A DNA stretch of 64,000 bases, taken from contig NZ_CP029190.1 of the NCBI RefSeq assembly GCF_008642295.1, positions 868,001-932,000 of the forward strand, written 5' to 3'. Shown here in pieces: positions 37,957 through 56,514 of this stretch. The first letter of the stretch is position 1. Each line of letters starts with the position of its first letter. Under the pieces are notes generated by a model that ran no database searches, had not been told where the DNA came from, and was given only the letters and a program-made list of their open reading frames with translations. This DNA comes from Streptomyces venezuelae. Lineage in GTDB: Bacteria; Actinomycetota; Actinomycetes; Streptomycetales; Streptomycetaceae. The position numbers and the translations under genes are program-made.

Positions 37957-40746
37957 ATGAGCGATTTCCCCGCTCAGGACACCGCCCGGGGCATCAGGAG
38001 CACGTCCGCCCGGCCCTCCGGGGGGAGGGCGCGGCGGCGTCCGCAGCGGCTGTCGGCCCTGCTGAGCGTGCGCAGTGTGGCCGGTGAGGTGTTCCTTCTG
38101 CAGCTGGCCGTCGTGGTGCTGCTGGTCGTCGCCGCGGTGGTGGCGCTGGTGGTGCAGGCCCGGAGTGCGAGCATGCTGGACGCCCGGCACCGTACGCTCG
38201 CCGCCGCCGGTACGTTCGCGGAATCGCCGGGGATCATTCCGGCCCTGCACAGCCGCGATCCGAGCGCGGTGCTCCAGCCGAGCGCGGAGGCGGCCCGGAA
38301 GATCGCCGGGGTGGACGGCATCAACGTGTACACGCTCAACGGGGTCACCCTCACCCACAGCGACCCGGAGCGGATCGGGAAGCACGTCGTCGGCCCGTTC
38401 GCCCGGGCGGCGGCCGGCAAGTCCTTCACCGAGACCTTCGAGGGGTCCCTGGGGCGGTCCGTGGTCTCGGTGGTCCCCGTCAAGGACCGCGACGGCTCCG
38501 TCCTCGCCGTGGTCGCCTCCCCGGTCACGGTCCAGAACGTCCAGAGCGTGGTGAACCGGCAGCTGCCGGTCGTCCTCGGCAGTGCCGCCGCGGTGCTCGC
38601 CCTGTCCGCCGGCGGAACGGCCCTGGTCAGCCGCCGGCTGCTGCGCCGGACCCACGGTCTGGGGCCGGCCGAGATGACGCGGATGTACGAGCACCACGAC
38701 GCGGTGCTGCACGCCGTACGGGAGGGCGTGCTGATCGTCGGCGACGGCGGCCGGCTGCTGCTGGCCAATGACGAGGCGCGGCGGCTGCTGGATCTGCCCG
38801 GGGACGCGGAAGGACTCCCCGTCACGGACCTGGGCCTGGAGGAGGGCATCGCCGAGCCGATCGCCTCGGGCCGTTCCGCGAGCGACGAGCTGCACATGGC
38901 AGGCGATCGGCTGCTGGCGGTGAACATCCGGCCCACCGCCCCCTACGGGCGGGCCGGGACCGTCGTCACGCTGCGCGACACCACCGAGCTGCGGGCGCTG
39001 TCCGGCCGGGCCGAGGTGGCCCGCGAGCGGCTGAAGCTGCTCTACGACGCGGGGGTGCGCGTCGGAACGACCCTGGACGTGGAGCGCACGGCCGGGGAGC
39101 TGGCGGAGGTGGTGGTCCCCCGGTTCGCCGACATCGCCACGGTCGATCTGCTGGACCCCGTACTGCGCGGCGAGGAGCCTCCCGAGCCGGGCACCGAGAT
39201 GCGCCGCACCGCCGCCGTCGGCCTTCGGGGCGACCCCGGTCTCTACACCGTCGGCGAGCTGATCCGGTTCGTCCCCAACAGCCCCATGGCGCTCGGGGTG
39301 GCCGGCGGCCGTGCGGTCCTGGAGACGGACCTCACCGCCACCCACGACTGGCGGGCCCAGGACCCGGTCCGTGCCCGGCTCATGCTGGACCACGGCCTCC
39401 ACTCGTTCATCGCCGTCCCCCTGCGGGCCCGCGGCGTGCTGCTGGGGATGGCCGGCTACTGGCGGGTACAGCCCTCGCCGCCGTTCGACGAGGAGGACGT
39501 GTCCTTCGCCGAGGAGCTGACCGCCCGGGCCGCGCTGTCCATCGACAACGCCCGCCGCTTCACCCGCGAGCACACGATGGCCGTCACCCTGCAGCGGAGC
39601 CTGCTGCCCCGCGGCGTACCGGACCAGTCCGCCGTCGAGGTCGCCCACCGCTATCTGCCCGCGCGGGCCGGGGTGGGCGGCGACTGGTTCGATGTCATCC
39701 CGCTGCCCGGCGCCCGGGTGGCCCTGGTGGTCGGCGATGTCGTCGGACACGGTCTGCACGCCGCCGCCACCATGGGCCGGCTGCGCACCGCCGTGCACAA
39801 TTTCTCCACGCTCGACCTGCCGCCGGACGAGCTGCTGAGCCATCTGGACGAGCTGGTCGCCCATATCGACGCGGACGAGGGCACCGGCGGCCAGGAGTGG
39901 CAGGGGATCTCCGGGGCCACCTGCCTGTGCGCCGTCTACGATTCCGTCTCCGGTCAGGTGACCGCCGCCACCGCAGGCCACCCGGGCCCGGTGGTCGTCG
40001 GCCCCGACGGCACCGTGTCCTTCCCCGAGCTGCCGGTTTCGCCACCGCTCGGCCTGGGCGCGGGGATGCCCATGGAGACGGCGGTGCTGACCCTGGCCGA
40101 GGGCACCCGGCTGGCGCTCTTCACCGACGGGCTGATCGAGAGCCGCGAGCGGGATCTCGATGCGGGCCTGGCGGCGCTGGGCGCCGCACTGGGCGGGCCC
40201 GCCCGTACGCCGGAGGAGACCTGCGCGGCGGTGATCGACACGATGCTGCCCACCGGGCACAACGACGACATCGCCCTGCTGGTGGCCCGTACGCGCCTGC
40301 TGGACCCGGCGCGGATCGCCGAGTGGGACGTGCCCTCCGACCCGGCGGCGGTGTCCCCGGTGCGCAACGCCTGCGCCCGCCGGCTGGCGGACTGGGGCCT
40401 GGAGGACATCGCCTTCACCACGGAGCTCATCCTGAGCGAACTGCTGACCAACGCGGTCCGCTACGGGTCCGAGCCCATCCGGGTGAGGCTGCTGTACGAC
40501 CGCAGCCTGATCTGCGAGGTCTCCGACGGGTCCAGCACCTCCCCGCACCCGCGCCGGGCCGAGGCCACCGACGAGGGAGGACGCGGCCTGTTCCTGGTCG
40601 CGCAGTTCGCCGAGCGCTGGGGCACCCGCTACACCGCACGCGGCAAGATCATCTGGAGCGAGCAGGCCCTCCAGCCCCCGGTCGCCCCGGCCGGGGAGGA
40701 CCTGGGGGCGGCGCTCCTCGCCGCATGGGACGACGAGGGGTTCTGA
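37957..40746 (+). CDS. Membrane SpoIIE-type phosphatase with extracellular sensor, PAS, GAF and HATPase domains
   Basis: A 929-residue sensor. Two membrane helices (about residues 43-63 and 204-224) flank an extracellular single-Cache-like domain (SPGIIPALHSRD ... DGINVYTLNGVTLTHSDPER). Then come PAS (about 245-350), GAF (about 360-545), a PP2C/SpoIIE domain (VGGDWFDVIPLP near 573, VGDVVGHGLHAA, ALFTDGLIESR near 722, HNDDIALLVAR) and a HATPase_c_2 domain (ELILSELLTNAVRYGS near 822, GGRGLFLVAQFAERWG). It should link an outside signal to a partner-switch controlling a sigma factor. No anti-anti-sigma gene is adjacent. The sensor half resembles DcuS/CitA kinases, a plausible hint of an organic-acid ligand. 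Confidence 0.92.
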   Translation: MSDFPAQDTARGIRSTSARPSGGRARRRPQRLSALLSVRSVAGEVFLLQLAVVVLLVVAAVVALVVQARSASMLDARHRTLAAAGTFAESPGIIPALHSRDPSAVLQPSAEAARKIAGVDGINVYTLNGVTLTHSDPERIGKHVVGPFARAAAGKSFTETFEGSLGRSVVSVVPVKDRDGSVLAVVASPVTVQNVQSVVNRQLPVVLGSAAAVLALSAGGTALVSRRLLRRTHGLGPAEMTRMYEHHDAVLHAVREGVLIVGDGGRLLLANDEARRLLDLPGDAEGLPVTDLGLEEGIAEPIASGRSASDELHMAGDRLLAVNIRPTAPYGRAGTVVTLRDTTELRALSGRAEVARERLKLLYDAGVRVGTTLDVERTAGELAEVVVPRFADIATVDLLDPVLRGEEPPEPGTEMRRTAAVGLRGDPGLYTVGELIRFVPNSPMALGVAGGRAVLETDLTATHDWRAQDPVRARLMLDHGLHSFIAVPLRARGVLLGMAGYWRVQPSPPFDEEDVSFAEELTARAALSIDNARRFTREHTMAVTLQRSLLPRGVPDQSAVEVAHRYLPARAGVGGDWFDVIPLPGARVALVVGDVVGHGLHAAATMGRLRTAVHNFSTLDLPPDELLSHLDELVAHIDADEGTGGQEWQGISGATCLCAVYDSVSGQVTAATAGHPGPVVVGPDGTVSFPELPVSPPLGLGAGMPMETAVLTLAEGTRLALFTDGLIESRERDLDAGLAALGAALGGPARTPEETCAAVIDTMLPTGHNDDIALLVARTRLLDPARIAEWDVPSDPAAVSPVRNACARRLADWGLEDIAFTTELILSELLTNAVRYGSEPIRVRLLYDRSLICEVSDGSSTSPHPRRAEATDEGGRGLFLVAQFAERWGTRYTARGKIIWSEQALQPPVAPAGEDLGAALLAAWDDEGF

Positions 40747-41993: not shown

Positions 41994-42406
41994 GCCGGGC
42001 CATGCCGACCCGTGCCGAGCCATGCCGGGCCGGGCCGCGCCGGGGCTCGGAGGTCATCCCGTCCTGTCGACCTGCCGGAAACCTCCACAACGTGCAGGTC
42101 ATCGCGCCGCGTCCCCTTCACGGCTCCCCGATTCCCCGACCGGACCCCCGGCTCCGCTGGGGGATTTGTCCCGCTATTGACCCCTGACGCCGCGAGCCGC
42201 CCGGATCTGTTACCCGATCTCGCGGAGACCCTGTCGGCATTCGGTGAAATTAGCTGCACGCCCGCCGTCCCGCGTGCACAACCGCCGGTAAAACGGCGTC
42301 AACACAATTGGCCGGGCCACCCGTTCGCATGCTTTCATCGTGCCCGCTGCGGCAGCTTCCCCCCACATTCCCCCCAACTCCCCCCATGAAATGAAGGGTG
42401 CGCAAC
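41994..42406 (+). promoter_or_regulatory. Leader and promoter region of the precursor peptide gene
   Basis: About 410 bp without a gene. The first 65 bp have short GCCGGGCC/GAGCC repeats. Further on, GACCTGC...GCAGGTC at 42069-42111 is a 7-bp inverted repeat. TTGACC at about 42176 could be a -35 box. A lower-GC stretch (42240-42350) precedes three C6 tracts and the ribosome site AAGGG at 42394-42398. Two tiny upstream reading frames (starts at 42386 and 42391) overlap the ribosome site. Confidence 0.45.
42359..42385 (+). promoter_or_regulatory. Three evenly spaced C6 tracts before the precursor gene
   Basis: CCCCCC occurs at 42359-42364, 42370-42375 and 42380-42385, separated by ACATT and AACT. 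The minus strand therefore carries three G6 tracts with 4-5 base spacers, a pattern that can support G-quadruplex or i-motif structure; a fourth G3 is not adjacent. It is in the 5' leader, 21 bases before the start codon. Confidence 0.5.
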
Positions 42407-42658
42407 ATGCGTGACAACCTCGAGACCCGCGAGATCGCCGACACCGAGCTGGACGCCGTGTCCGGTGGCGTCGTCAGCATCTCCGGCGGCCTCGCCGGTG
42501 CCGTGACCAGCGACGTCACCGGCATCCTGGGCACCGTCGGCTCCCTGCAGACGGTCCAGGGCGTCCAGGGCCTCGCCGCCAACGTCCCCGGCCTGGCCTC
42601 GGGCATCACCGGTGTTTCGGTCAACACCGCCGCCCTGACCGGCTTCGCCGGTATCTGA
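42407..42658 (+). CDS. Double-glycine leader precursor peptide (bacteriocin/RiPP-like) of an NHLM export cassette
   Basis: An 83-residue peptide. Residues 1-21 (MRDNLETREIADTELDAVSG then G) form a leader with the ELDxVSGG signature cut by C39 peptidases after Gly-Gly. The predicted 62-residue core starts VVSISGGLAGAV and is made almost only of Gly, Ala, Val, Leu, Ile, Ser and Thr, with no Cys, aromatic or positively charged residue and just one acidic residue. Several GxxxG-like spacings suggest membrane insertion or helix packing. ATG 42407 has AAGGG 8 bases upstream. The next genes encode the matching exporter. A lanthipeptide is unlikely without Cys. Confidence 0.82.
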   Translation: MRDNLETREIADTELDAVSGGVVSISGGLAGAVTSDVTGILGTVGSLQTVQGVQGLAANVPGLASGITGVSVNTAALTGFAGI

Positions 42659-42669
42659 GTGGAACAACC

Positions 42670-42710
42670 GTGAACCCCGGGACGCGGGCTTTTCCCGTCC
42701 CGGGGTTCAC
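42670..42710 (+). terminator. Hairpin between precursor and exporter genes (attenuator)
   Basis: A perfect 15-bp stem, GTGAACCCCGGGACG at 42670-42684 and CGTCCCGGGGTTCAC at 42696-42710, with an 11-base loop containing TTTT. It is 11 bp past the precursor stop and 27 bp before the start of the HlyD-like gene. Partial termination here would give much more precursor mRNA than exporter mRNA, a common layout in bacteriocin operons. Confidence 0.8.
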
Positions 42711-42737
42711 GGCCGCCCCTGCACCAAGGAATGATCC

Positions 42738-43544
42738 GTGCAGTTCCGCCAAAAGGCTCTGGTCAAGCTGGAGTCTCCCGAAGAACTCGATGTGCCGGTG
42801 CGCTTCGCGCGCGCCCAGGGCCGTCTCGTCCTGGCCGTCACGGCCGTCGTGATGGCAGCCGCGACCGTCTGGGCCCTCACCGGCACGGTGTCCGCCACCC
42901 TGGGCGTGCCCGGCATCCTCACCCGCGCCGAGGGCAGCTACCTGCTGCAGAGCCCGGTCGCCGGACAGGTGACCGCCCTCCTCGTCGAGGAGGGCCGCCC
43001 GGTGTCCCCCGGTACCCCCCTCCTCACCGTCCGTACCGCCCAGGGCGAACAGCCCGTGCGCGCGGTGGCCGGCGGCCGGGTGGCCACTCTGGTCGCCCGG
43101 GTGGGCTCGGTCGTCACGGCCGGCGCGGACGTGGCGGTCGTGGAGCGCGTCACGGATCCCGACGAGCCGCTGGTGGCCGTGCTGTACGCGACGGGCGGCA
43201 GCGCCGCGGAGGTCCGGGTGGGCGCCTCCGTCGACCTGAGCCTCGCGACCGTGCCCCGGGAGCGGTTCGGGGTGCTGCACGGCCGGATCAAGGCGGTGGG
43301 CCGGGCACCCCAGACGCAGGCGCAGATCGCCGGCTTCCTCGGCGACAACGGGCTCGCCGCGCAGTTCTCGCGGCAGGGAAACCCGGTTGCGGTGCTCGTG
43401 CAGCTGGAGTCCGCCACCGGCACCGAGTCCGGGTACGCATGGTCCTCCGCGGGCGGGCCTCCGTACGCCATCGAGTCCGGGACTCCGGTCACCGGCGCCG
43501 TACGCCTCTCCGCCCAGCGCCCCGTCGACTGGCTGCTCCCGTGA
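42738..43544 (+). CDS. NHLM-type bacteriocin secretion protein, HlyD-like
   Basis: A 268-residue membrane-fusion-like protein. One membrane helix at about residues 29-50 (LVLAVTAVVMAAATVWALTG), then a biotinyl-lipoyl-like beta domain (GSYLLQSPVAGQVTALLVEE ... PVRAVAGGRVATLVARVGSV) and a C-terminal beta domain (GASVDLSLATVPRERFGVLH). In a Gram-positive cell it would scaffold the ABC exporters at the outer face of the membrane. GTG start with AAGGA upstream. It ends in a GTGA overlap with the next gene. Confidence 0.85.
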   Translation: MQFRQKALVKLESPEELDVPVRFARAQGRLVLAVTAVVMAAATVWALTGTVSATLGVPGILTRAEGSYLLQSPVAGQVTALLVEEGRPVSPGTPLLTVRTAQGEQPVRAVAGGRVATLVARVGSVVTAGADVAVVERVTDPDEPLVAVLYATGGSAAEVRVGASVDLSLATVPRERFGVLHGRIKAVGRAPQTQAQIAGFLGDNGLAAQFSRQGNPVAVLVQLESATGTESGYAWSSAGGPPYAIESGTPVTGAVRLSAQRPVDWLLP

Positions 43545-45763
43545 CCGCGCCCCACGCCGCCGGGGGCCGGCGCCGCGCCGCCCGCCGGCCCGCCGCTCCC
43601 CGGGGCCCGAGACCGCGTACCGTCCGCACCCCCACCGTGCTCCAGATGGAGGCGGTGGAATGCGGGGCCGCGGCCCTGGCCATGGTGCTCGGCCACTACG
43701 CCCGCTTCGTCCCGCTGGAGGAGCTGCGGATCGCCTGCGGCGTCTCCAGGGACGGCTCGCGGGCGAGCAACCTCCTCAAGGCGGCGCGCGGTTACGGCCT
43801 CCAGGCCAAGGGCATGCAGATGGACCTGGCCGCGCTGGCCGAGGTCCCCGCCCCGGCCATCCTGTTCTGGGAGTTCAACCACTACGTCGTCTACGAGGGC
43901 ATGGGCCGGCGCTTCGGCCGCCGGGGCGTGTACGTCAACGACCCCGGCAAGGGCCGCCGGTTCGTGCCCATGGACGAGTTCGACACCGCCTTCACCGGCA
44001 TCGTGCTCACCTTCGAACCCGGCGCCGGGTTCCGCCGCAGCGGCCGGAAGCCGGGCGTGCTGGGCGCCGTACCGGGCCGGCTGCGCGGCACCTCGGGCAC
44101 CATGGCCGTCGCCGTGGTCTCCAGCCTGCTGCTGGTGGCCGTCGGTGCGACGGTGCCCGCGCTGAGCCGGACGTACATCGACATGTTCCTGATCGGGGAA
44201 CAGACCTCCCTGCTGGGCGTGCTCTTCGCGTCGATGGCCACCGCCCTGGTGCTCACCGCCACCCTCACCTGGCTGCAGCAGGCCAATCTGCTGCGCGGGC
44301 GGATCGTCTCCTCCACCCTCGGCAGCGCCCGCTTCCTGCGGCACCTGCTCCGGCTGCCGGTCAGTTTCTACGCCCAGCGCAATCCGGCCGATCTGGTGCA
44401 GCGGCTGCGGTCGAACGACGCGGTCGCCGAGACCCTCGCCCGCGATCTGACCGCCGCGGGCGTGGATGCCGTGGTGGTGCTGCTCTACGCGGTGCTGCTG
44501 TGGACCTACGATCCGCAGCTCACCCTCGTCGGCGTGGCCGTGGCCCTGCTCAACGTGGTGGCCATGCGGATCGCGATCAGGGTGCGGGCCACCGGCACCC
44601 GCAAGCTGCGCGCCGAGAGCGCCCGGCTGACCAACACCTCCTACAGCGGGCTGACGCTCATCGAGACCATGAAGGCCACCGGCGGGGAGAACGGGTTCTT
44701 CCGCCGGTGGGCCGGACAGCACGCGGTCACCCTGGACGTGCAGCAGCGGCTCGGCGTGCCCAGTGCCTGGCTGGCGGTGGTCGCGCCCACGCTCGCCGCC
44801 TTCAACAGTGCGCTGATCCTGATGATCGGCGGCCTGCGGGCGGTGGAGGGGCACCTTTCCGTCGGTCTCCTGGTCGCCTTCCAGGCCCTGGTCACCAGCT
44901 TCACCGCGCCGATCAGCCGGCTCAACGGAGTCGCCGGCCGGATCCAGGACTTCGCGGCCGACATCGCCCGGCTCAAGGACGTCGAGAACTTCCCCGTCGA
45001 CCCCGTCCATGCGCGCCGCGAGCCCGCCGCCGGCACCCGCCGGCTCACCGGCCATCTGGAGCTGGACGGCATCACCTTCGGCTACAGCCCCCTGGACGCC
45101 CCGCTGCTCCGGGACTTCTCGCTCACCGTCGGCCCCGGACAGCAGGTCGCGCTGGTCGGCGGCTCCGGCAGCGGCAAGTCCACCGTCTCCCGGCTGATCG
45201 CCGGGCTCTACACCCCCTGGGAGGGCGCCATCCGCATCGACGGGATGCGGCTGGCGGACATTCCGCGCGGTGCGCTGGCCGCCTCCGTCTCCTTCGTGGA
45301 CCAGGACGTGTTCCTGTTCGAGGGCACGGTCCGCGACAACGTGGCGCTGTGGGACCCCTCGGTCCCGGACGAGGCCGTCCTCGCGGCGCTCGAGGACGCC
45401 GCCGTCCTCGATGTGGTGGCCGGCCGGCCCGGGGGCATCCACAGCCGGGTCGAGCAGGACGGCCGGAACTTCTCCGGCGGTCAGCGCCAGCGCCTGGAGA
45501 TCGCCCGGGCGCTGGTGCGCAATCCCGGGGTCCTCGTGCTCGACGAGGTCACCAGCGCCCTGGACGCGGTGACCGAGCGGCTGGTCATCGACAACCTGCG
45601 CCGCCGCGGCTGCGCCTGCGTGGTCATCGCGCACCGGCTCAGCACGGTGCGCGACAGCGACGAGATCCTCGTGCTGGACCGGGGCACGGTCGTGGAGCGC
45701 GGTCCGCACGAGTACCTGGTGGCCGCCGGCGGCCGGTACGCCCAACTGGTCAGGGAGCACTGA
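43541..45763 (+). CDS. NHLM-type ABC exporter with N-terminal C39 peptidase
   Basis: A 740-residue processing exporter. The C39 cysteine peptidase (about residues 30-160) has LQMEAVECGAAALAMVLGHY with catalytic Cys41, FNHYVVYEG with His114 and NDPGKG with Asp134, so it should cut the leader after Gly-Gly. Membrane helices span about 180-460. The nucleotide-binding domain has Walker A GGSGSGKST near residue 540, the signature FSGGQRQRLEIARAL near 645, Walker B VLVLDEVTSALD and a switch His in VIAHRLS. GTG 43541 overlaps the previous stop. It is the obvious partner for the upstream Gly-Gly peptide. Confidence 0.93.
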   Translation: MTAPHAAGGRRRAARRPAAPRGPRPRTVRTPTVLQMEAVECGAAALAMVLGHYARFVPLEELRIACGVSRDGSRASNLLKAARGYGLQAKGMQMDLAALAEVPAPAILFWEFNHYVVYEGMGRRFGRRGVYVNDPGKGRRFVPMDEFDTAFTGIVLTFEPGAGFRRSGRKPGVLGAVPGRLRGTSGTMAVAVVSSLLLVAVGATVPALSRTYIDMFLIGEQTSLLGVLFASMATALVLTATLTWLQQANLLRGRIVSSTLGSARFLRHLLRLPVSFYAQRNPADLVQRLRSNDAVAETLARDLTAAGVDAVVVLLYAVLLWTYDPQLTLVGVAVALLNVVAMRIAIRVRATGTRKLRAESARLTNTSYSGLTLIETMKATGGENGFFRRWAGQHAVTLDVQQRLGVPSAWLAVVAPTLAAFNSALILMIGGLRAVEGHLSVGLLVAFQALVTSFTAPISRLNGVAGRIQDFAADIARLKDVENFPVDPVHARREPAAGTRRLTGHLELDGITFGYSPLDAPLLRDFSLTVGPGQQVALVGGSGSGKSTVSRLIAGLYTPWEGAIRIDGMRLADIPRGALAASVSFVDQDVFLFEGTVRDNVALWDPSVPDEAVLAALEDAAVLDVVAGRPGGIHSRVEQDGRNFSGGQRQRLEIARALVRNPGVLVLDEVTSALDAVTERLVIDNLRRRGCACVVIAHRLSTVRDSDEILVLDRGTVVERGPHEYLVAAGGRYAQLVREH

Positions 45764-45764
45764 C

Positions 45765-48668
45765 GTGAACACGGTCGGCACCACGGGCACCGGGGTGGTG
45801 TCCCCGGACCCGGTCGTCGCGGCCCTGGGCGGGTTGGGCGCACCGGTGGACTGCACCGGTCTGCGCAGCATCTCCCTGGAGGGCCCGTCCGTCCTGTGGC
45901 TCCTGGTCCGGGGCGAGCTGGACCTGTTCGCCGTGGCCACGGCGCAGCTGGGGAACTGGCACTTCCTGGGCCGGCTGGAGGCGGGGACGCTGCTCCTGGG
46001 CCCGGCCGAGGGCCCCGGGCACACCCTGGTGGGCCGGCCGTCGCGGGAGTGCCTGCTGCGCCGTATCGAGCTGCGGGAGTCTGCGGGTCCGTGGCACCCG
46101 GGGCAGTGGTACGCCGACCAGGGCGGGTACGGCGTCGGCGACGGGTACCTGAGCCCGCTGGACGCGGCCTTCGCGCGCGGCGTGGGCCGCGGCCTGCGGG
46201 TGCTGTACGAGGCGCCGCTCGGCGGCGACCCCGGACAGGGCGGGCACGGCGGGGGCGGCGGGGCCGATGAGGACATCATGTGGATGCAGATCGCCCCCGG
46301 CAGCGTGCAGTACGGGGCCGCGTACGAGGCGGCGATGGCCGACGCCCTGCTGGTCGACCCGGCGATGTGGCAGGGCATGGTCGAGCAGCAGTACCGGCTG
46401 CGGCTGGCCCTGGACCGCTGGATCGAGCAGCGCGAACGCGCCCACGAGGACCGTACGGCCGCCGGTGTCGAGGCCGGCCGGGCCGCCCGTACCGAGGCGA
46501 ACCGGGTGCTGGCGGCCTCCCTCGGCCGCTCGGCCGCACCTGCCGCGCGCGGCGGCGCGAGCGCCGACGCGACCCTCGCCGTGTGCCGCCTGGTCGCCGC
46601 CGAAACGGGCATCGCCTTGGACGCGGCGGCCGGGGCGGGAGCCGGCTCCGAGCGGACGGACCCCGTCGAGCGCATCGCGCTCGCCGCACGCTTCCGCACC
46701 CGCCCGGTCGGTCTCGTCGGGCGCTGGTGGCGGGAGAACAGCGGGCCCCTGGTGGGCCGGCGCGCTGCGGACGGGGCGCCGGTCGCCCTGCTCTGGCGGC
46801 GCGGCGGCTATGTGGCGGTCGACCCGGCCAGCGGCCAACGCGAGCGGATTGGCGAGCGCGGCAACGGCGGCAAGGGTGGCAAGGGCGACCCGGCCGGTTT
46901 CGAACCGCGGGCCGTGATGTTCTACCGCCCGCTGCCCGACGGCCCGCTGGGCCTGCTCGCACTGCTGCGGTTCAGTGTCCGGGGCACCCGCGCGGAACTG
47001 CGGAGCCTCCTGCCGGCCGCGCTGGTCGCGATGGTCCTGGGCGCGCTGGTGCCGGTGGCCACCGGCAAGGTGCTCGGCCGGTACGTGCCGCAGGCGGAGT
47101 CCGGCCTGATCGTGCAGACCACGGTCGCGCTGCTGGCGGCCGGTGTGCTCTCGGCGGTCTTCATGCTCTGGCAGAACGTCTCGCTGCTGCGTATGGAGGG
47201 CCGGATCGAGGCCACCCTGCAGCCCGCGGTGTGGGACCGGCTGCTGAGGCTGCCGACGACCTTCTTCACCGGCGACTCGGGCCGCGCCGGCCAGTCGACG
47301 GGGGAGCTGGCCAATGCCGCCATGGGCATCAGCACCATCCGCCGCACCCTGTCCGGCATCGGAGCGGTCTGCATCCAGGCGAGCACCGTGGGGACCATGA
47401 ACCTGGTGCTGCTGTTCGTCTACAACGCGCAGCTGGCGCTGGCGGCGGTGGGCATGCTGTTCCTCGTCGCGGTGGTCTTCCTGGGGCTGGGGCTGTGGCA
47501 GCTGCGCTACCAGCGCCGGCTGGTCAGGCTGGACAACCGGCTCGACAACCAGGCCTTCCAGACCCTGCGCGGGCTGCCGAAGCTGCGGGTGGCGGCGGCT
47601 GAGAGCTTCGCCTACGCCGCCTGGGCGCGGGAGTTCGCCCGGACCCGGACCCTGCACCAGCGCGCCGGCCGGATCCAGAACCTCGTCACGGTGCTCAACG
47701 CGGTCTGCCTTCCGCTGTGCACGCTGGTGATGTTCATGCTGCTGGCCGGGCCGGCCCGCGGCACCATGTCCGCCGCGGCGTTCCTGACGTTCAGCACCGC
47801 CGTGACGCTCCTGCTGTCCTCGGTCACCCAGGTGACGGGCGCGCTGCTGTCGGCGGCGGCCGTGCTGCCCGTGTTCGAGGAGGTCGCGCCGATCCTGCGG
47901 GCGACGCCCGAGGTGCGCGGCGCCGCTGCCGCCCCCGGCGTGCTGGGCGGAGCCGTCGAGGCCCGGCAGCTGTCGTACCGCTATGCCGAGGACGGCCCGC
48001 TGGTTCTCGACGAGGTGGATCTCCGGGTCCGGCCGGGTGAGTTCGTGGCGATCGTCGGGGCCAGCGGCTGCGGGAAGTCGACCCTGCTGCGGCTGCTGAT
48101 CGGCTTCGACAGGCCGACCACCGGCAGTGTGCGGTACGACGGCCAGGACCTGGCGGGGCTGGACCAGGCGGCCGTGCGCCGGCAGTGCGGGGTGGTCCTC
48201 CAGCACGCCCGGCCGTTCACCGGCTCGATCCTGGACTGCATCCGGGGCGCCGATTCGTTCTCCCTGGAGGAGGTGTGGGAGGCCGTGGCGATGGCGGGCC
48301 TGGCCGAGGACATCAAGGCCATGCCCATGGGCCTGCACACCATGCTGTCCGATGGCGGGGGCACCGTCTCGGGCGGCCAGCGCCAGCGCCTCATGATCGC
48401 CCAGGCCCTGGTCCGCCGGCCCCGGGTGCTCTTCTTCGACGAGGCCACCAGTGCACTGGACAACGAGGCCCAGCGGGTGGTGATCGAGTCGACCCGGGCC
48501 CTGCGCGCCACCCGCATCGTGATCGCGCACCGGCTGTCCACGATCATGGACGCCGACCGGGTGATCGCCATGGCGGACGGGCGCATCGTCCAGCAGGGTC
48601 CGCCCGCCGAGCTGCTCGCCGACACCTCGGGGCTGTTCCACGGCCTGGTCCGCCGCCAGCTGAGCTGA
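45765..48668 (+). CDS. NHLM-type ABC exporter with N-terminal sensory-like domain
   Basis: A 967-residue second exporter. The N-terminal 390 residues hold a cyclic-nucleotide-binding-like/cupin-type beta domain (VRGELDLFAV ... LGNWHFLGRLEAGTLLLGPA) and a helical middle part instead of a peptidase. Membrane helices lie at about 405-580. The ATPase has GASGCGKST near residue 765, SGGQRQRLMIAQALV near 870, VLFFDEATSALD and IVIAHRLS. In NHLM systems the two exporters are thought to act as a heterodimer, which is family knowledge. GTG start one base after the previous stop. Confidence 0.92.
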   Translation: MNTVGTTGTGVVSPDPVVAALGGLGAPVDCTGLRSISLEGPSVLWLLVRGELDLFAVATAQLGNWHFLGRLEAGTLLLGPAEGPGHTLVGRPSRECLLRRIELRESAGPWHPGQWYADQGGYGVGDGYLSPLDAAFARGVGRGLRVLYEAPLGGDPGQGGHGGGGGADEDIMWMQIAPGSVQYGAAYEAAMADALLVDPAMWQGMVEQQYRLRLALDRWIEQRERAHEDRTAAGVEAGRAARTEANRVLAASLGRSAAPAARGGASADATLAVCRLVAAETGIALDAAAGAGAGSERTDPVERIALAARFRTRPVGLVGRWWRENSGPLVGRRAADGAPVALLWRRGGYVAVDPASGQRERIGERGNGGKGGKGDPAGFEPRAVMFYRPLPDGPLGLLALLRFSVRGTRAELRSLLPAALVAMVLGALVPVATGKVLGRYVPQAESGLIVQTTVALLAAGVLSAVFMLWQNVSLLRMEGRIEATLQPAVWDRLLRLPTTFFTGDSGRAGQSTGELANAAMGISTIRRTLSGIGAVCIQASTVGTMNLVLLFVYNAQLALAAVGMLFLVAVVFLGLGLWQLRYQRRLVRLDNRLDNQAFQTLRGLPKLRVAAAESFAYAAWAREFARTRTLHQRAGRIQNLVTVLNAVCLPLCTLVMFMLLAGPARGTMSAAAFLTFSTAVTLLLSSVTQVTGALLSAAAVLPVFEEVAPILRATPEVRGAAAAPGVLGGAVEARQLSYRYAEDGPLVLDEVDLRVRPGEFVAIVGASGCGKSTLLRLLIGFDRPTTGSVRYDGQDLAGLDQAAVRRQCGVVLQHARPFTGSILDCIRGADSFSLEEVWEAVAMAGLAEDIKAMPMGLHTMLSDGGGTVSGGQRQRLMIAQALVRRPRVLFFDEATSALDNEAQRVVIESTRALRATRIVIAHRLSTIMDADRVIAMADGRIVQQGPPAELLADTSGLFHGLVRRQLS

Positions 48669-51097: not shown

Positions 51098-51496
51098 ATG
51101 ACCACCACAGCGAACCGTGCGGAGATCGAAGCCGACATCAAGGAGACCCTGGGTCTGGTGCCCCACTTCTTCTCCTCCATCCCGACGGAGCTGCTCGGGC
51201 CCGAGTGGGAGATCTTCAAGCGGATCGAGCTCGGGGAAACCCTGATCCCGAACAAGTACAAGGAGCTCATCGGGGTGGGGCTGCACGCCGAGACCAAGTG
51301 CCGGTACTGCAGCCTGTTCCACACCGAGGCCGCAAAGCTCTTCGGGGCCACCGACGAAGAAGTCCAGGAAGCCGTCCACTACGCCAAGGCCAGCCTCGGC
51401 TGGAGTGCCTACATCAACGGCATGCAGGAGGACTACGACCAGTTCGCCAAGGAGCTGGACCAGGTCACCGCATACGTCCGCGCCAAGGCCGCGTGA
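51098..51496 (+). CDS. Carboxymuconolactone-decarboxylase/AhpD-family protein
   Basis: A 132-residue all-helical protein with the family motif KCRYCSLFHTEAAKLFGATD, containing the Cys-x2-Cys-x3-His redox site of AhpD-like peroxidase partners. LIPNKYKELIGVGLHAET is also typical. Its role is likely thiol-based detoxification, but other family members are lyases. GAGAAGGG lies upstream of the ATG. The stop overlaps the start of the next small gene (TGATG). Confidence 0.88.
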   Translation: MTTTANRAEIEADIKETLGLVPHFFSSIPTELLGPEWEIFKRIELGETLIPNKYKELIGVGLHAETKCRYCSLFHTEAAKLFGATDEEVQEAVHYAKASLGWSAYINGMQEDYDQFAKELDQVTAYVRAKAA

Positions 51497-51693
51497 TGGA
51501 GCTGGAGCGGATCCGGCCCACGGTGCTGCGGGGGACCTTCCACGCGTACGAACTGGCCGCGCTGACGGCGGCGGCCCGGTACGTGGTCGAGTCCGCACCC
51601 GCCGACGTTCCGGCGGAATCGCTGGACCAGCTCGAGCAGCTGCTCACGGAGTACGACCGGCAGGTGCGGAAGCTGGCCGGCCGGCAGCCGTGA
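51496..51693 (+). CDS. Small hypothetical protein, 65 residues, coupled to AhpD-like gene
   Basis: Translation starts at the ATG inside the TGATG junction with the AhpD-like gene, so it is translationally coupled. The product is a predicted helical protein (LRGTFHAYELAALTAAARYV, LDQLEQLLTEYDRQVRKLAG) without Cys or signal peptide. It looks like a small partner or chaperone of the upstream protein. No family recognised. Confidence 0.7.
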   Translation: MELERIRPTVLRGTFHAYELAALTAAARYVVESAPADVPAESLDQLEQLLTEYDRQVRKLAGRQP

Positions 51694-52637: not shown

Positions 52638-53537
52638 TCAGCCCCGGCCGGCGATGTGGCCGTACTCGTGGAACCCCCGCCCCGACTTCCGGCCCAGGAG
52701 GCCGGCCTGCACCATGCGGCGGAGCAGCGGCGGCGGAGCGTACAGGGGCTCCTTGAACTCCTCGTAGAGGGCCGCGGCGATGGCGTCGACGGTGTCGAGG
52801 CCGATCAGGTCGGCCAGTTTGAGCGGGCCCATGGGGTGGGCGCAGCCCTGTTCCATGCCGGCGTCGATGTCGGCGGCGGTGGCGAAACCGGATTCCGCCA
52901 TCCGGACGGCCGACAGCAGATAGGGGATCAGCAGGGAGTTGACGATGAACCCGGCGCGGTCCTGGGAGCGGATCGCGGTCTTGCCCAGGGTGTCGCGGGC
53001 GAAGGCCTCCACGGCCCCGGCGGTCTCCGCCGAGGTGTGCAGGGAGGTCACCACCTCCACCAGCGGCAGCACCGGAACGGGGTTGAAGAAGTGCAGGCCG
53101 ACCACCCGGTCGGCGCGGCGGGTGGCCATCCCCAGCTGCATGACGGGGAGGGCGGAGGTGTTGGTGGCCAGGACCGCCGCCGGGTCCTCCACGATCTTGT
53201 CGAGGGCGGCGAACACCTCCGTCTTGGCCCCGGGGTTCTCGGTCACGGCCTCGATCACGAGCTGCCGGTCGGCGAGGTCTTCCAGGTCTCCGGTGAACAC
53301 CAGCCGGGCCAGGGCGTCCTCGGCCGAGAGCCGGTCGAGTTTGCCGCGCTGGACGGCGCGTTCCAGGGATACGGCGACGCGTTCGCGGGCGGTGCGGGCG
53401 GCGGTGGCGTCGGCTTCGGCCACCACCGTGTCCAGGCCGGCCCGGGCGCAGACCTCGGCGATGCCGGCGCCCATCTGGCCGCCGCCGATGATCCCGATGC
53501 GCTGGAAGCGGGCGGCGGGCCGGGTGCGGGCGCTCAT
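52638..53537 (-). CDS. 3-Hydroxyacyl-CoA (3-hydroxybutyryl-CoA) dehydrogenase
   Basis: A 299-residue NAD(P)-dependent enzyme. GIIGGGQMGAGIAEVCARAG is the dinucleotide motif, VLATNTSALPVMQLG and VVGLHFFNPVPVLPLVEVV include the catalytic His, and DRAGFIVNSLLIPYLLSAVR is the substrate helix. It interconverts acetoacetyl-CoA and 3-hydroxybutyryl-CoA. The start ATG overlaps the malate-synthase stop (ATGA), so the two are translationally coupled, tying this step to acetate and fatty acid use via the glyoxylate shunt. Confidence 0.93.
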   Translation of the reverse strand: MSARTRPAARFQRIGIIGGGQMGAGIAEVCARAGLDTVVAEADATAARTARERVAVSLERAVQRGKLDRLSAEDALARLVFTGDLEDLADRQLVIEAVTENPGAKTEVFAALDKIVEDPAAVLATNTSALPVMQLGMATRRADRVVGLHFFNPVPVLPLVEVVTSLHTSAETAGAVEAFARDTLGKTAIRSQDRAGFIVNSLLIPYLLSAVRMAESGFATAADIDAGMEQGCAHPMGPLKLADLIGLDTVDAIAAALYEEFKEPLYAPPPLLRRMVQAGLLGRKSGRGFHEYGHIAGRG

Positions 53538-55132
53538 GACGGCACCGGCGCGGCGGCGTGGCGGACCAGGTGGCGGGTGTAGGCCTCGGGGGTGAAGAAG
53601 GCGGGCAGTTCCGCGGCGAGGGCGGTACGGACGAACACTTCGCGGGCCTCCGCGGACAGGGCGGCGGGGTCCTCGGCGGCCAGGGCCGCGACTTCCGCGT
53701 CCAGCAGGCCGGTGACGGTGGCGTGGTCCACGCTGCCGTGGCGGAGCCACTGCCAGATCTGGACCCGGGCGATCTCCGCGGTGGCGGCGTCCTCCATCAG
53801 CCCGTAGAGGGCGACGGCTCCGCTGCCGCGCAGCCAGGCGTCGAAGTAGCGCAGGGCGACGGCGACGTTGGCGCGGATGCCCTCGTCGGTCGGCGGGGCG
53901 ACGATCCGGCGGACCGAGAGCAGGTCGGCGGCCGTGACCTCGACATCGCCACGGGTGCGTTCGAGCTGGTGGGGCCGCTCCCCCAGGACGCCGTCGAAGA
54001 CCTCGCGGCAGACCGGGACGAGTCCGGGGTGGGCCACCCAGGAGCCGTCGAAGCCGTCCTCGGCCTCGCGTTCCTTGTCGAGGCGGACCTTGGCGAGGGC
54101 CGCGGTGTTGGCCTCGGTGTCCCGGCTGGGCACATGGGCGGCCATACCGCCGATGGCGTGGGCGCCGCGCCGGTGGCAGGTGCGGACCAGGAGTTCGGTG
54201 TAGGCCCGCATGAAGGGGGCGGTCATGGTGACCTTGGCCCGGTCGGGCAGCCGGAAGTCGGTGCGGTGGCCGAAGGTCTTGATGAGGCTGAAGAGGTAGT
54301 CCCAGCGGCCGGCGTTGAGGCCGGCACTGTGCTCGCGCAGCTCGTGGAGGATCTCCTCCATCTCGAAGGCGGCGGTGATCGTCTCGATGAGGACGGTGGC
54401 CCGGATGGTGCCGCGGGGGATGCCGAGCAGGTCCTGGGCGAGGAGGAACACATCGTTCCAGAGCCGGGCTTCGTACCGGTTCTCCAGCTTGGGGAGGTAG
54501 AAGTAGGGGCCGGAGCCGGCGTCGATCTGGCGCTGGGCGCAGTGGAAGAAGTACAGGCCGAAGTCGACGAGGGAGGCGGGCACGGGGCGCCCGTCGATCT
54601 CCAGGTGTTCCTCGGTGAGGTGCCAGCCGCGGGGGCGGACCATGATGGTCGCGAGCTGCTCGCCGAGGCGGTATTCCCTGCCCTCGGGGGTGGTGAAGTC
54701 GATGCGCCGGTCGATGGCGTCGCTGAGGTTCAGCTGGCCGTCGATGACATTGGCCCAGGTCGGGGCGGTGGCGTCTTCGAAGTCGGCCATCCACACCTGG
54801 GCACCGGAGTTGAGGGCGTTGACGGTCATCCGGCGCTCGGGGGGTCCGGTGATCTCCACGCGGCGGTCGGTGAGACCGGGGGCGGGCGGGGCGACGCGCC
54901 AGTCGGGGTCCTCGCGGATGGCGCGGGTGGCGAGCGGGAAGCCGAGCGGGGTGCCGTGGGCGAGGTGGCCCGAACGGCGGCGGCGCTCCTTGAGGACTTC
55001 CAGGCGCCGGTCCGCGAACGCGGCGTCGAGCCGGCCGATGAACTCCAGGGCCGCGGGCGTCAGGATCTCCTCGTGACGCTCACCCGGGGCACCGAGAACC
55101 CGGACGCTGCTGGTCAGGGGCGGGAGGGACAT
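53534..55132 (-). CDS. aceB: Malate synthase A
   Basis: This condenses glyoxylate with acetyl-CoA to malate. The 532-residue size fits isoform A. Motifs are WMADFEDATAPTWANVIDGQ, TIMVRPRGWHLTEEHLEIDG, YFYLPKLENRYEARLWNDVF, ATVLIETITAAFEMEEILHE and DGSWVAHPGLVPVC, covering the magnesium-binding Glu/Asp and catalytic residues. GGAG-type sequence lies about 10 bases before ATG 55132. It is 92 bp downstream of the isocitrate lyase gene and coupled to the dehydrogenase gene. Confidence 0.95.
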   Translation of the reverse strand: MSLPPLTSSVRVLGAPGERHEEILTPAALEFIGRLDAAFADRRLEVLKERRRRSGHLAHGTPLGFPLATRAIREDPDWRVAPPAPGLTDRRVEITGPPERRMTVNALNSGAQVWMADFEDATAPTWANVIDGQLNLSDAIDRRIDFTTPEGREYRLGEQLATIMVRPRGWHLTEEHLEIDGRPVPASLVDFGLYFFHCAQRQIDAGSGPYFYLPKLENRYEARLWNDVFLLAQDLLGIPRGTIRATVLIETITAAFEMEEILHELREHSAGLNAGRWDYLFSLIKTFGHRTDFRLPDRAKVTMTAPFMRAYTELLVRTCHRRGAHAIGGMAAHVPSRDTEANTAALAKVRLDKEREAEDGFDGSWVAHPGLVPVCREVFDGVLGERPHQLERTRGDVEVTAADLLSVRRIVAPPTDEGIRANVAVALRYFDAWLRGSGAVALYGLMEDAATAEIARVQIWQWLRHGSVDHATVTGLLDAEVAALAAEDPAALSAEAREVFVRTALAAELPAFFTPEAYTRHLVRHAAAPVPS

Positions 55133-55224
55133 GCGGTTCTCCTCAGCGGGGGCGGGTGCCCGACGGGGACGTCCGCCGGGCACCGGGTGCCGTGGTTCCG
55201 TGATTCCGTGGTTCCGGGCGGGAT

Positions 55225-56514
<1,290 letters not shown>

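Follow-up and report, generated by a model that had tools for sequence, protein, structure and literature searches.

A Streptomyces peptide-export cassette that likely serves dispersed Gly-Gly precursors

In a 64,000-nucleotide stretch of Streptomyces venezuelae DNA (contig NZ_CP029190.1, positions 868,001 to 932,000; hereafter the window), a small gene for a peptide precursor with a Gly-Gly (GG) leader is followed by genes for a HlyD-like adaptor and two ATP-binding cassette (ABC) exporters. We consider it likely that this four-gene cassette anchors a peptide-export system of Streptomyces, in which one exporter serves dispersed, hydrophobic peptides that are most likely unmodified. The features of the sequence that carry this reading are the gene content, the co-occurrence of exporter and precursor, a shared leader, a shared promoter-like element, and a stem-loop between the precursor and exporter genes. 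A preliminary description of the same DNA had pointed out a peptide with an ELDAVSGG leader together with exporter genes; both proved real, and its interpretation as a whole is partly supported. Not part of that description were the precursor paralogues at scattered loci, the element that several of them share, and the stem-loop.

The export cassette and its conservation

The cassette comprises the following features:

42309..42339, plus strand: promoter-like element TGGCCGGGCCACCCGTTCGCATGCTTTCATC, 67 bases 5' of the precursor start and the sole exact site in the window and in the genome
42407..42658, plus strand: GG precursor of 83 amino acids, with a leader of residues 1-21 (42407-42469) and a predicted core of residues 22-83 (42470-42655)
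42668..42712, plus strand: strong stem-loop between the precursor and exporter genes; the 79-base gap folds at -47.3 kcal/mol (z score, -5.56)
42738..43544, plus strand: short HlyD-like adaptor of 268 amino acids, predicted to form a long N-terminal helix followed by lipoyl and barrel strands
43541..45763, plus strand: C39 peptidase/ABC exporter (NHLM_micro_ABC1; hereafter ABC1) of 740 amino acids, with peptidase and ATPase motifs intact
45765..48668, plus strand: second ABC exporter without a peptidase (NHLM_micro_ABC2; hereafter ABC2) of 967 amino acids, with ATPase motifs intact

The precursor reads MRDNLETREIADTELDAVSGG followed by a core running VVSISGG...GFAGI, its leader ending in ELDAVSGG. 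The core of 62 residues has no Cys, Trp, or Tyr and one Phe; the preliminary description was therefore right in calling it cysteine-free and off by one residue in denying it aromatics. Its isoelectric point is ~4.05, its grand average of hydropathy 1.0, and its calculated mass 5653 Da. Neither NCBIfam nor Pfam gave a match to the precursor at E values up to 0.1, and an AlphaFold2 model of it was helical and unusable, with a predicted local distance difference test score (pLDDT) of 51.6.

The C39-ABC gene had been placed first among the exporter genes, which did not hold: the order is precursor, HlyD-like adaptor, ABC1, ABC2, with 79 bases between the precursor and the adaptor gene and an overlap of 4 bases between the adaptor and ABC1 genes. 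Against NCBIfam, ABC1 scored 999.9 bits with TIGR03796 (cut-off, 853.3) and ABC2 830.9 bits with TIGR03797 (cut-off, 709.4), while the adaptor scored 153 bits with TIGR03794 (E 1.2e-44; cut-off, 156.2), its 268 amino acids facing a model of 421 positions. The C39 motifs of ABC1, to which we presumptively assign catalytic roles, are intact (QMEAVEC with C41, NHYVV with H114, and NDPGKG), and this domain is the sole Peptidase_C39 match (E ≤ 0.001) in the single-contig genome of 7.5 Mb. The adaptor model (pLDDT 85) has a helix at residues 14-48, which as predicted should include a membrane span, followed by lipoyl and barrel strands, with no long helical hairpin. Since the long hairpin of HlyD-type adaptors docks outer-membrane channels, an adaptor modeled without one fits a single-membrane cell.

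A protein search returned 92 precursor relatives at E ≤ 0.01 (query counted), and a contig scan gave 106 encoded relatives, from which 80 loci were retained; in both, the named relatives were almost all Streptomyces. All four genes were present in the same order and on the same strand at 73 of the 80 loci, so that a check proposed in the preliminary description, whether homologues sit before the same three genes, came out in its favour. Six of the seven exceptions reach a contig end (L017, L022, L056, L058, L064, and L076); the seventh (L052) keeps the precursor and a shortened HlyD gene, with neither ABC1 nor ABC2 present in its 10-kb region. Given the number of relatives and the gene order they share, the pairing of precursor and exporter is more than chance.

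We also scored 392 genomes of the genus, counting as exporter-positive those with ABC1 over the cut-off and as precursor-positive those with a match (E ≤ 0.01) to A2, a broad precursor alignment of 28 members. The exporter was found in 286 genomes (about three quarters) and an A2 precursor match in 287; by hand cross-tabulation, 281 genomes had both, 5 the exporter only, 6 the precursor only, and 100 neither (Fisher P = 7e-79). Across the order, ABC1 exceeded its cut-off in 173 of 245 genomes, nearly all of those among the matches listed belonging to the same genus, and matches were found in 3 of 8 genera at a match threshold of E 1e-180.

The few discordant genomes are largely accounted for by their loci. 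Three exporter-only genomes (G314, G117, and G027; loci L139, L141, and L143) are cases of contig edges, with ABC1 in G027 also divergent (59%). The other two, G185 (L149) and G037 (L150), carry a distant NHLM-type exporter whose ABC1 is ~50% and whose HlyD protein is ~35% identical; this distant exporter has a short adaptor too, and no precursor of the cassette family was found in the fetched 14 kb. An exporter lacking its precursor, which the preliminary description would have counted against itself if widespread, was thus confined to 5 of 286 genomes. Among precursor-only genomes, G332 (L152) and G273 (L153) have ABC1 split between frames, by either decay or sequencing errors; in G116 the precursor and HlyD gene share a contig, and a fragment of ABC1 lies on a different one; and in G177 the precursor, the HlyD gene, and the start of ABC1 lie within the fetched stretch.

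Leaders, solitary precursors, and shared signals

Conservation within the precursor is concentrated in the leader, which holds 8 of the 10 invariant columns over the 28 A2 members. The cassette leaders form at least three subfamilies, MRN..IETREI (the window type), MRHxIETAEL, and MNSTPQVETVEI, and the cassette cores draw on a restricted set of residues (G, A, V, L, I, S, T, and N make up 87%; no aromatic residue in 67 of 81). With one method applied to the same 498 pairs, the ratio of nonsynonymous to synonymous substitution rates (dN/dS) was highest for the core (0.75) and lower for HlyD (0.33), the leader (0.31), and ABC1 (0.21); because a simple codon method was used under strong GC bias, only the comparison between genes counts. 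The contrast was smaller in MNSTPQ-type cassettes (core 0.61, leader 0.42), and six pairs (length 71) were an exception, with 1.22 for the leader and 1.62 for the core. The core, then, drifts or diversifies inside its narrow composition faster than the leader, which is held, probably by the exporter.

Many genomes had at least 2 to 5 A2 matches, counts that are lower bounds because the search scored 14 candidates per genome. Matches away from the cassette were studied in 30 genomes picked for extra or solitary matches, a selection that itself counts against our reading. By hand count, the A2 matches listed for these genomes numbered 89, of which 28 fall at cassettes and 61 away from them. Of these 61, 42 are covered by the 40 regions that were fetched; among the 19 left out, 5 lie in open frames >1,100 amino acids and are probably not precursors. 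A small gene with a cassette-type leader and a GG site was present in all 40 of these orphan regions. Its core belonged to several unrelated types, e.g., GPTAVSDADVLAQVDAVKN..., SVSGSVEGLTATFAPGPNGVPVLTGG..., and IGLTAGAALVAGDGAFAAGLHAES..., with no Cys in 28 of 40 and Trp in none. None of the 40 orphan precursors adjoins a cassette-type exporter, general ABC ATPase matches occurred in three regions only, and no other gene family was common to more than 5 of the 40. Orphan core type III was found in 10 of the 392 genomes, all of them exporter-positive, a small number that makes a weak test of co-occurrence.

Upstream alignments and a scan revealed an element 5' of the precursor at cassettes and many orphans, TGG-N17-R-TGCTTTSATC, i.e., TGG, 18 bases, and TGCTTTSATC. 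Exact copies of TGCTTTGATC precede 15 of 15 MNSTPQ-type cassettes and orphans of types II (5 of 7), IV (3 of 3), and V (8 of 13). For window-type cassettes, 6 of 66 are exact, 28 of 66 have at most one mismatch, and 66 of 66 at most two, set against a first-order Markov shuffle background of ~1% at ≤1 mismatch and 12% at ≤2. A fixed pattern gave 30 exact sites in 36 genomes, all 5' of a precursor open reading frame (ORF), and none in seven exporter-negative genomes. Over the 392 genomes, from a listing read by hand, an exact site was found in 204, namely 200 of the 286 with the exporter and 4 of the 106 without it (P = 1e-35), and a backward control pattern gave 2 sites. Two of the four exporter-negative genomes with a site have a precursor (G116 and G311); in the other two (G209 and G366) the sites precede none. 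Among 76 exact sites examined, a subset of all sites, 68 have a precursor ORF on their 3' side. A one-mismatch search of 15 genomes gave 12 exact and 12 one-mismatch sites (backward control, 8). Of the one-mismatch sites, 7 have a precursor behind them; the remaining 5, two of them in an exporter-negative genome, have none. As the motif was built from upstream regions of precursors, its presence there is partly expected; its near absence elsewhere is an independent result.

Three element matches without a precursor ORF behind them (L271, L272, and L273, in G122, G255, and G209) share a similar spacer, TGGACGCAYCC...TGTGCTTTSATC, and possibly reflect another conserved use or chance. An identical match at L252 and L276 (G093 and G364) likewise has no precursor behind it. 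A further stretch, TGTTACTCG ... TCGGTGAA, is conserved 5' of the element in window-type cassettes (42207-42250 in the window).

The gap between precursor and HlyD genes folded with a z score below -2 in 74 of 78 loci (median, -4.2), and in 13 loci inspected by eye, with no formal covariation count, the stem sequences differ while pairing persists. A stem-loop that keeps the precursor transcript above the exporter transcript is a common design, and the cassette stem-loop fits it. Hairpins 3' of orphan genes are not uniform (z below -2 in 22 of 40). Rfam offered no identity for the cassette stem-loop beyond microRNA-family matches far below the gathering score, which we took as chance hairpin matches.

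Together, the same leader at distant loci and the same element at several core types suggest that one exporter probably serves a dispersed repertoire. We propose that the promoter-like element would start transcription of the precursor and that the stem-loop would probably lower the expression of the exporter genes that follow, or uncouple it. The C39 domain of ABC1 would then cut after GG, and ABC1 and ABC2 with the short HlyD-like adaptor would export the core, ~60 residues long, almost uncharged, and rich in Gly, Val, and Ala, over the single membrane. Solitary precursors at distant loci may join the same route through their leader, their cores most likely left unmodified. Cleavage, export in trans, and co-regulation are thus steps that we infer.

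Several observations weigh against this scheme. Two precursor-only genomes (G311 and G345) keep a solitary precursor without an exporter of the cassette type. The window genome shows the cassette precursor only, at the thresholds used (14 of 55 first-look candidates scored), so that the dispersed layer rests on its relatives. With at most one mismatch, the element is found at none of 8 casC and none of 3 casX cassettes and at 1 of 9 type III and 1 of 8 type VI orphans; 86 of the 286 exporter-positive genomes have no exact copy; and 8 of the 76 examined exact sites precede no precursor, 7 of these 8 coming from the last-fetched 20 sites, which were chosen in part for seeming anomalous. Orphan cores have one Cys in 12 of 40 and an aromatic residue in 29 of 40 cases, and some family members weakly match precursor models of ribosomally synthesized and post-translationally modified peptides (RiPPs), the best being the ATP-grasp target (5 of 28 A2 members; E 2.5e-05).

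Neighbouring genes and the nature of the product

The cassette stands alone: none of its conserved neighbours is a modification enzyme, an immunity gene, or a regulator, since no adjoining gene is conserved at all widely. When called genes of at least 50 amino acids around the 80 loci and the window were clustered, families beyond the four cassette genes reached at most 18 of the 81 neighbourhoods, and the commoner ones lay on either side at scattered distances. No modification-type family was shared among the called genes of the 81 neighbourhoods or the 40 orphan regions, which bears out the earlier statement that no modifying enzyme is nearby.

In the window, Pfam identified a solute-binding protein, a SpoIIE-type phosphatase, and two hydrolases 5' of the cassette, and an unnamed protein, a GAPDH-like protein, and others 3' of it. 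The phosphatase (38089-40746) carries sCache, GAF, and kinase-like ATPase domains, and such a family occurs in 9 neighbourhoods. On the minus strand, 52638-56514 holds consecutive 3-hydroxyacyl-CoA dehydrogenase, malate synthase, and isocitrate lyase-like genes.

UniRef names several relatives "Type A2 lantipeptide" although they are Cys-free, a name in keeping with the short acidic GG leader and the C39 exporter. We rejected a lanthipeptide identity because there is no Cys in any of the 92 precursor proteins found or the 81 cassette cores, and no lanthionine synthetase is conserved nearby; in the window, none was present among the 11 neighbouring called genes scanned with Pfam, a set that did not include a 66-amino-acid gene at 51493-51693. 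The peptide is therefore, as had been proposed, distinct from lanthipeptides. In one Streptomyces antiSMASH region, a gene that its authors name "type A2 lantipeptide", without further study, lies with a Peptidase_C39 (PMC13047742) and may be a relative of the cassette; apart from this possible relative, we found no analysis of the cassette in the literature, mainly that which is openly readable.

A modified product of another kind, with its tailoring enzyme encoded elsewhere and acting in trans, strikes us as very unlikely. It would suit the Ser and Thr in the cores, the single Cys of some orphans, and the weak model matches of A2 members, which beside the ATP-grasp target include TigB (3 of 28) and the lacticin 481 family (3 of 28). 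There are also precedents in NHLM exporters that elsewhere serve modified peptides (PMC2887384) and in prochlorosin precursors lying far from their enzyme (PMC7268733). However, no modification-type family is common to cassettes or orphans, a result that covers the neighbourhoods and not the rest of the genomes; the cassette cores are uniformly without Cys; and the window precursor matches no NCBIfam model. Among the 17 NCBIfam families matched by A2 members there was likewise no NHLP or Nif11 model.

The product could alternatively be a classical unmodified class II type bacteriocin, whose core would permeabilize competitors and whose paralogues would be further bacteriocins on the same exporter. 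Class II bacteriocins have a short GG leader (model TIGR01847), a C39-ABC exporter, a hydrophobic core, and an immunity gene. The C39 exporter, the GG leader, and a hydrophobic core with GxxxG spacing agree with this, as do the fast evolution of the cores (dN/dS 0.75), their several unrelated types, and weak model matches of family members (e.g., TIGR01847 in 6 of 28; best E 0.0014). However, among called genes of at least 50 amino acids, smaller ones not being called, no immunity gene is conserved beside cassettes or orphan loci; the core is acidic, not cationic; two ABC proteins and an adaptor are present; and occurrence in 286 of 392 genomes is unusual for a strain-specific weapon. On balance we regard a bacteriocin as unlikely.

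Presence in about three quarters of the genus would also suit a peptide pheromone of colony development, one that would leave the cell through the cassette and act on some receptor, and 12 of the 28 members weakly match the pheromone VP1 model (best E 0.00028). These matches may, however, reflect the GG leader alone, the core is long and fast-evolving for a signal, and no sensor or receptor gene is conserved in the 81 clustered cassette neighbourhoods, so that we think a signal quite unlikely.

Function and relation to known systems

Over a bacteriocin, a signal, or a modified product, we favour a secreted peptide with a surface-active or matrix role within the colony that makes it. Two observations speak for this: the lack of a conserved immunity gene and the presence of the cassette in about three quarters of the genus. 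By analogy with EbfG in Synechococcus biofilms this function is possible, though we hold it tentatively. The nearest functional precedent is EbfG1-4 and PteB of Synechococcus elongatus, where small GG-motif proteins need a C39 peptidase exporter for efficient secretion (PMC4997328). The proposed likeness, several small GG peptides that one C39 peptidase exporter would serve, draws on the leader and element shared in relatives of the window genome and not on sequence comparison with EbfG; mutants established the biofilm role there, whereas the system described here is known from sequence alone.

In composition, the cassette resembles the NHLM/NHLP system, which has the same three exporter components, a leader apparently conserved for the exporter, and several precursors per genome. 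Haft, Basu, and Mitchell (2010) ascribed the conservation of the NHLP leader to handling by the NHLM exporter type and expected mix-and-match (PMC2887384), with which the cassette agrees. In contrast to that system, there is here no nitrile-hydratase or Nif11 leader by NCBIfam and no conserved adjoining tailoring enzyme, the adaptor is shorter than its model, and an element is common to the cassette and some remote precursors. Prochlorosins are modified by a LanM enzyme; here no enzyme was found at the loci, and the shared component is the exporter. They too combine a conserved leader with variable cores, and their precursor genes lie distant from the processing gene (PMC7268733).

A genus-wide regulon, in which the exporter cassette and a lineage-variable, chromosome-wide set of unmodified GG peptides are linked by a common leader and, for several core types, by a dedicated promoter signal that hardly occurs elsewhere in the genome, the secreted hydrophobic peptides having a colony-level role, is in our estimate evenly balanced between true and false. 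The element would be a highly specific promoter signal and a starting point in the search for its regulator. Since many of the peptide genes stand by themselves with no adjoining modification enzyme, genome mining based on clusters would tend to miss them. With the cassette and its scattered peptides one could ask cleanly whether the leader by itself is enough to direct peptides to one exporter, and, if our reading is true, a genus-wide class of secreted peptides would be added to those of Streptomyces.

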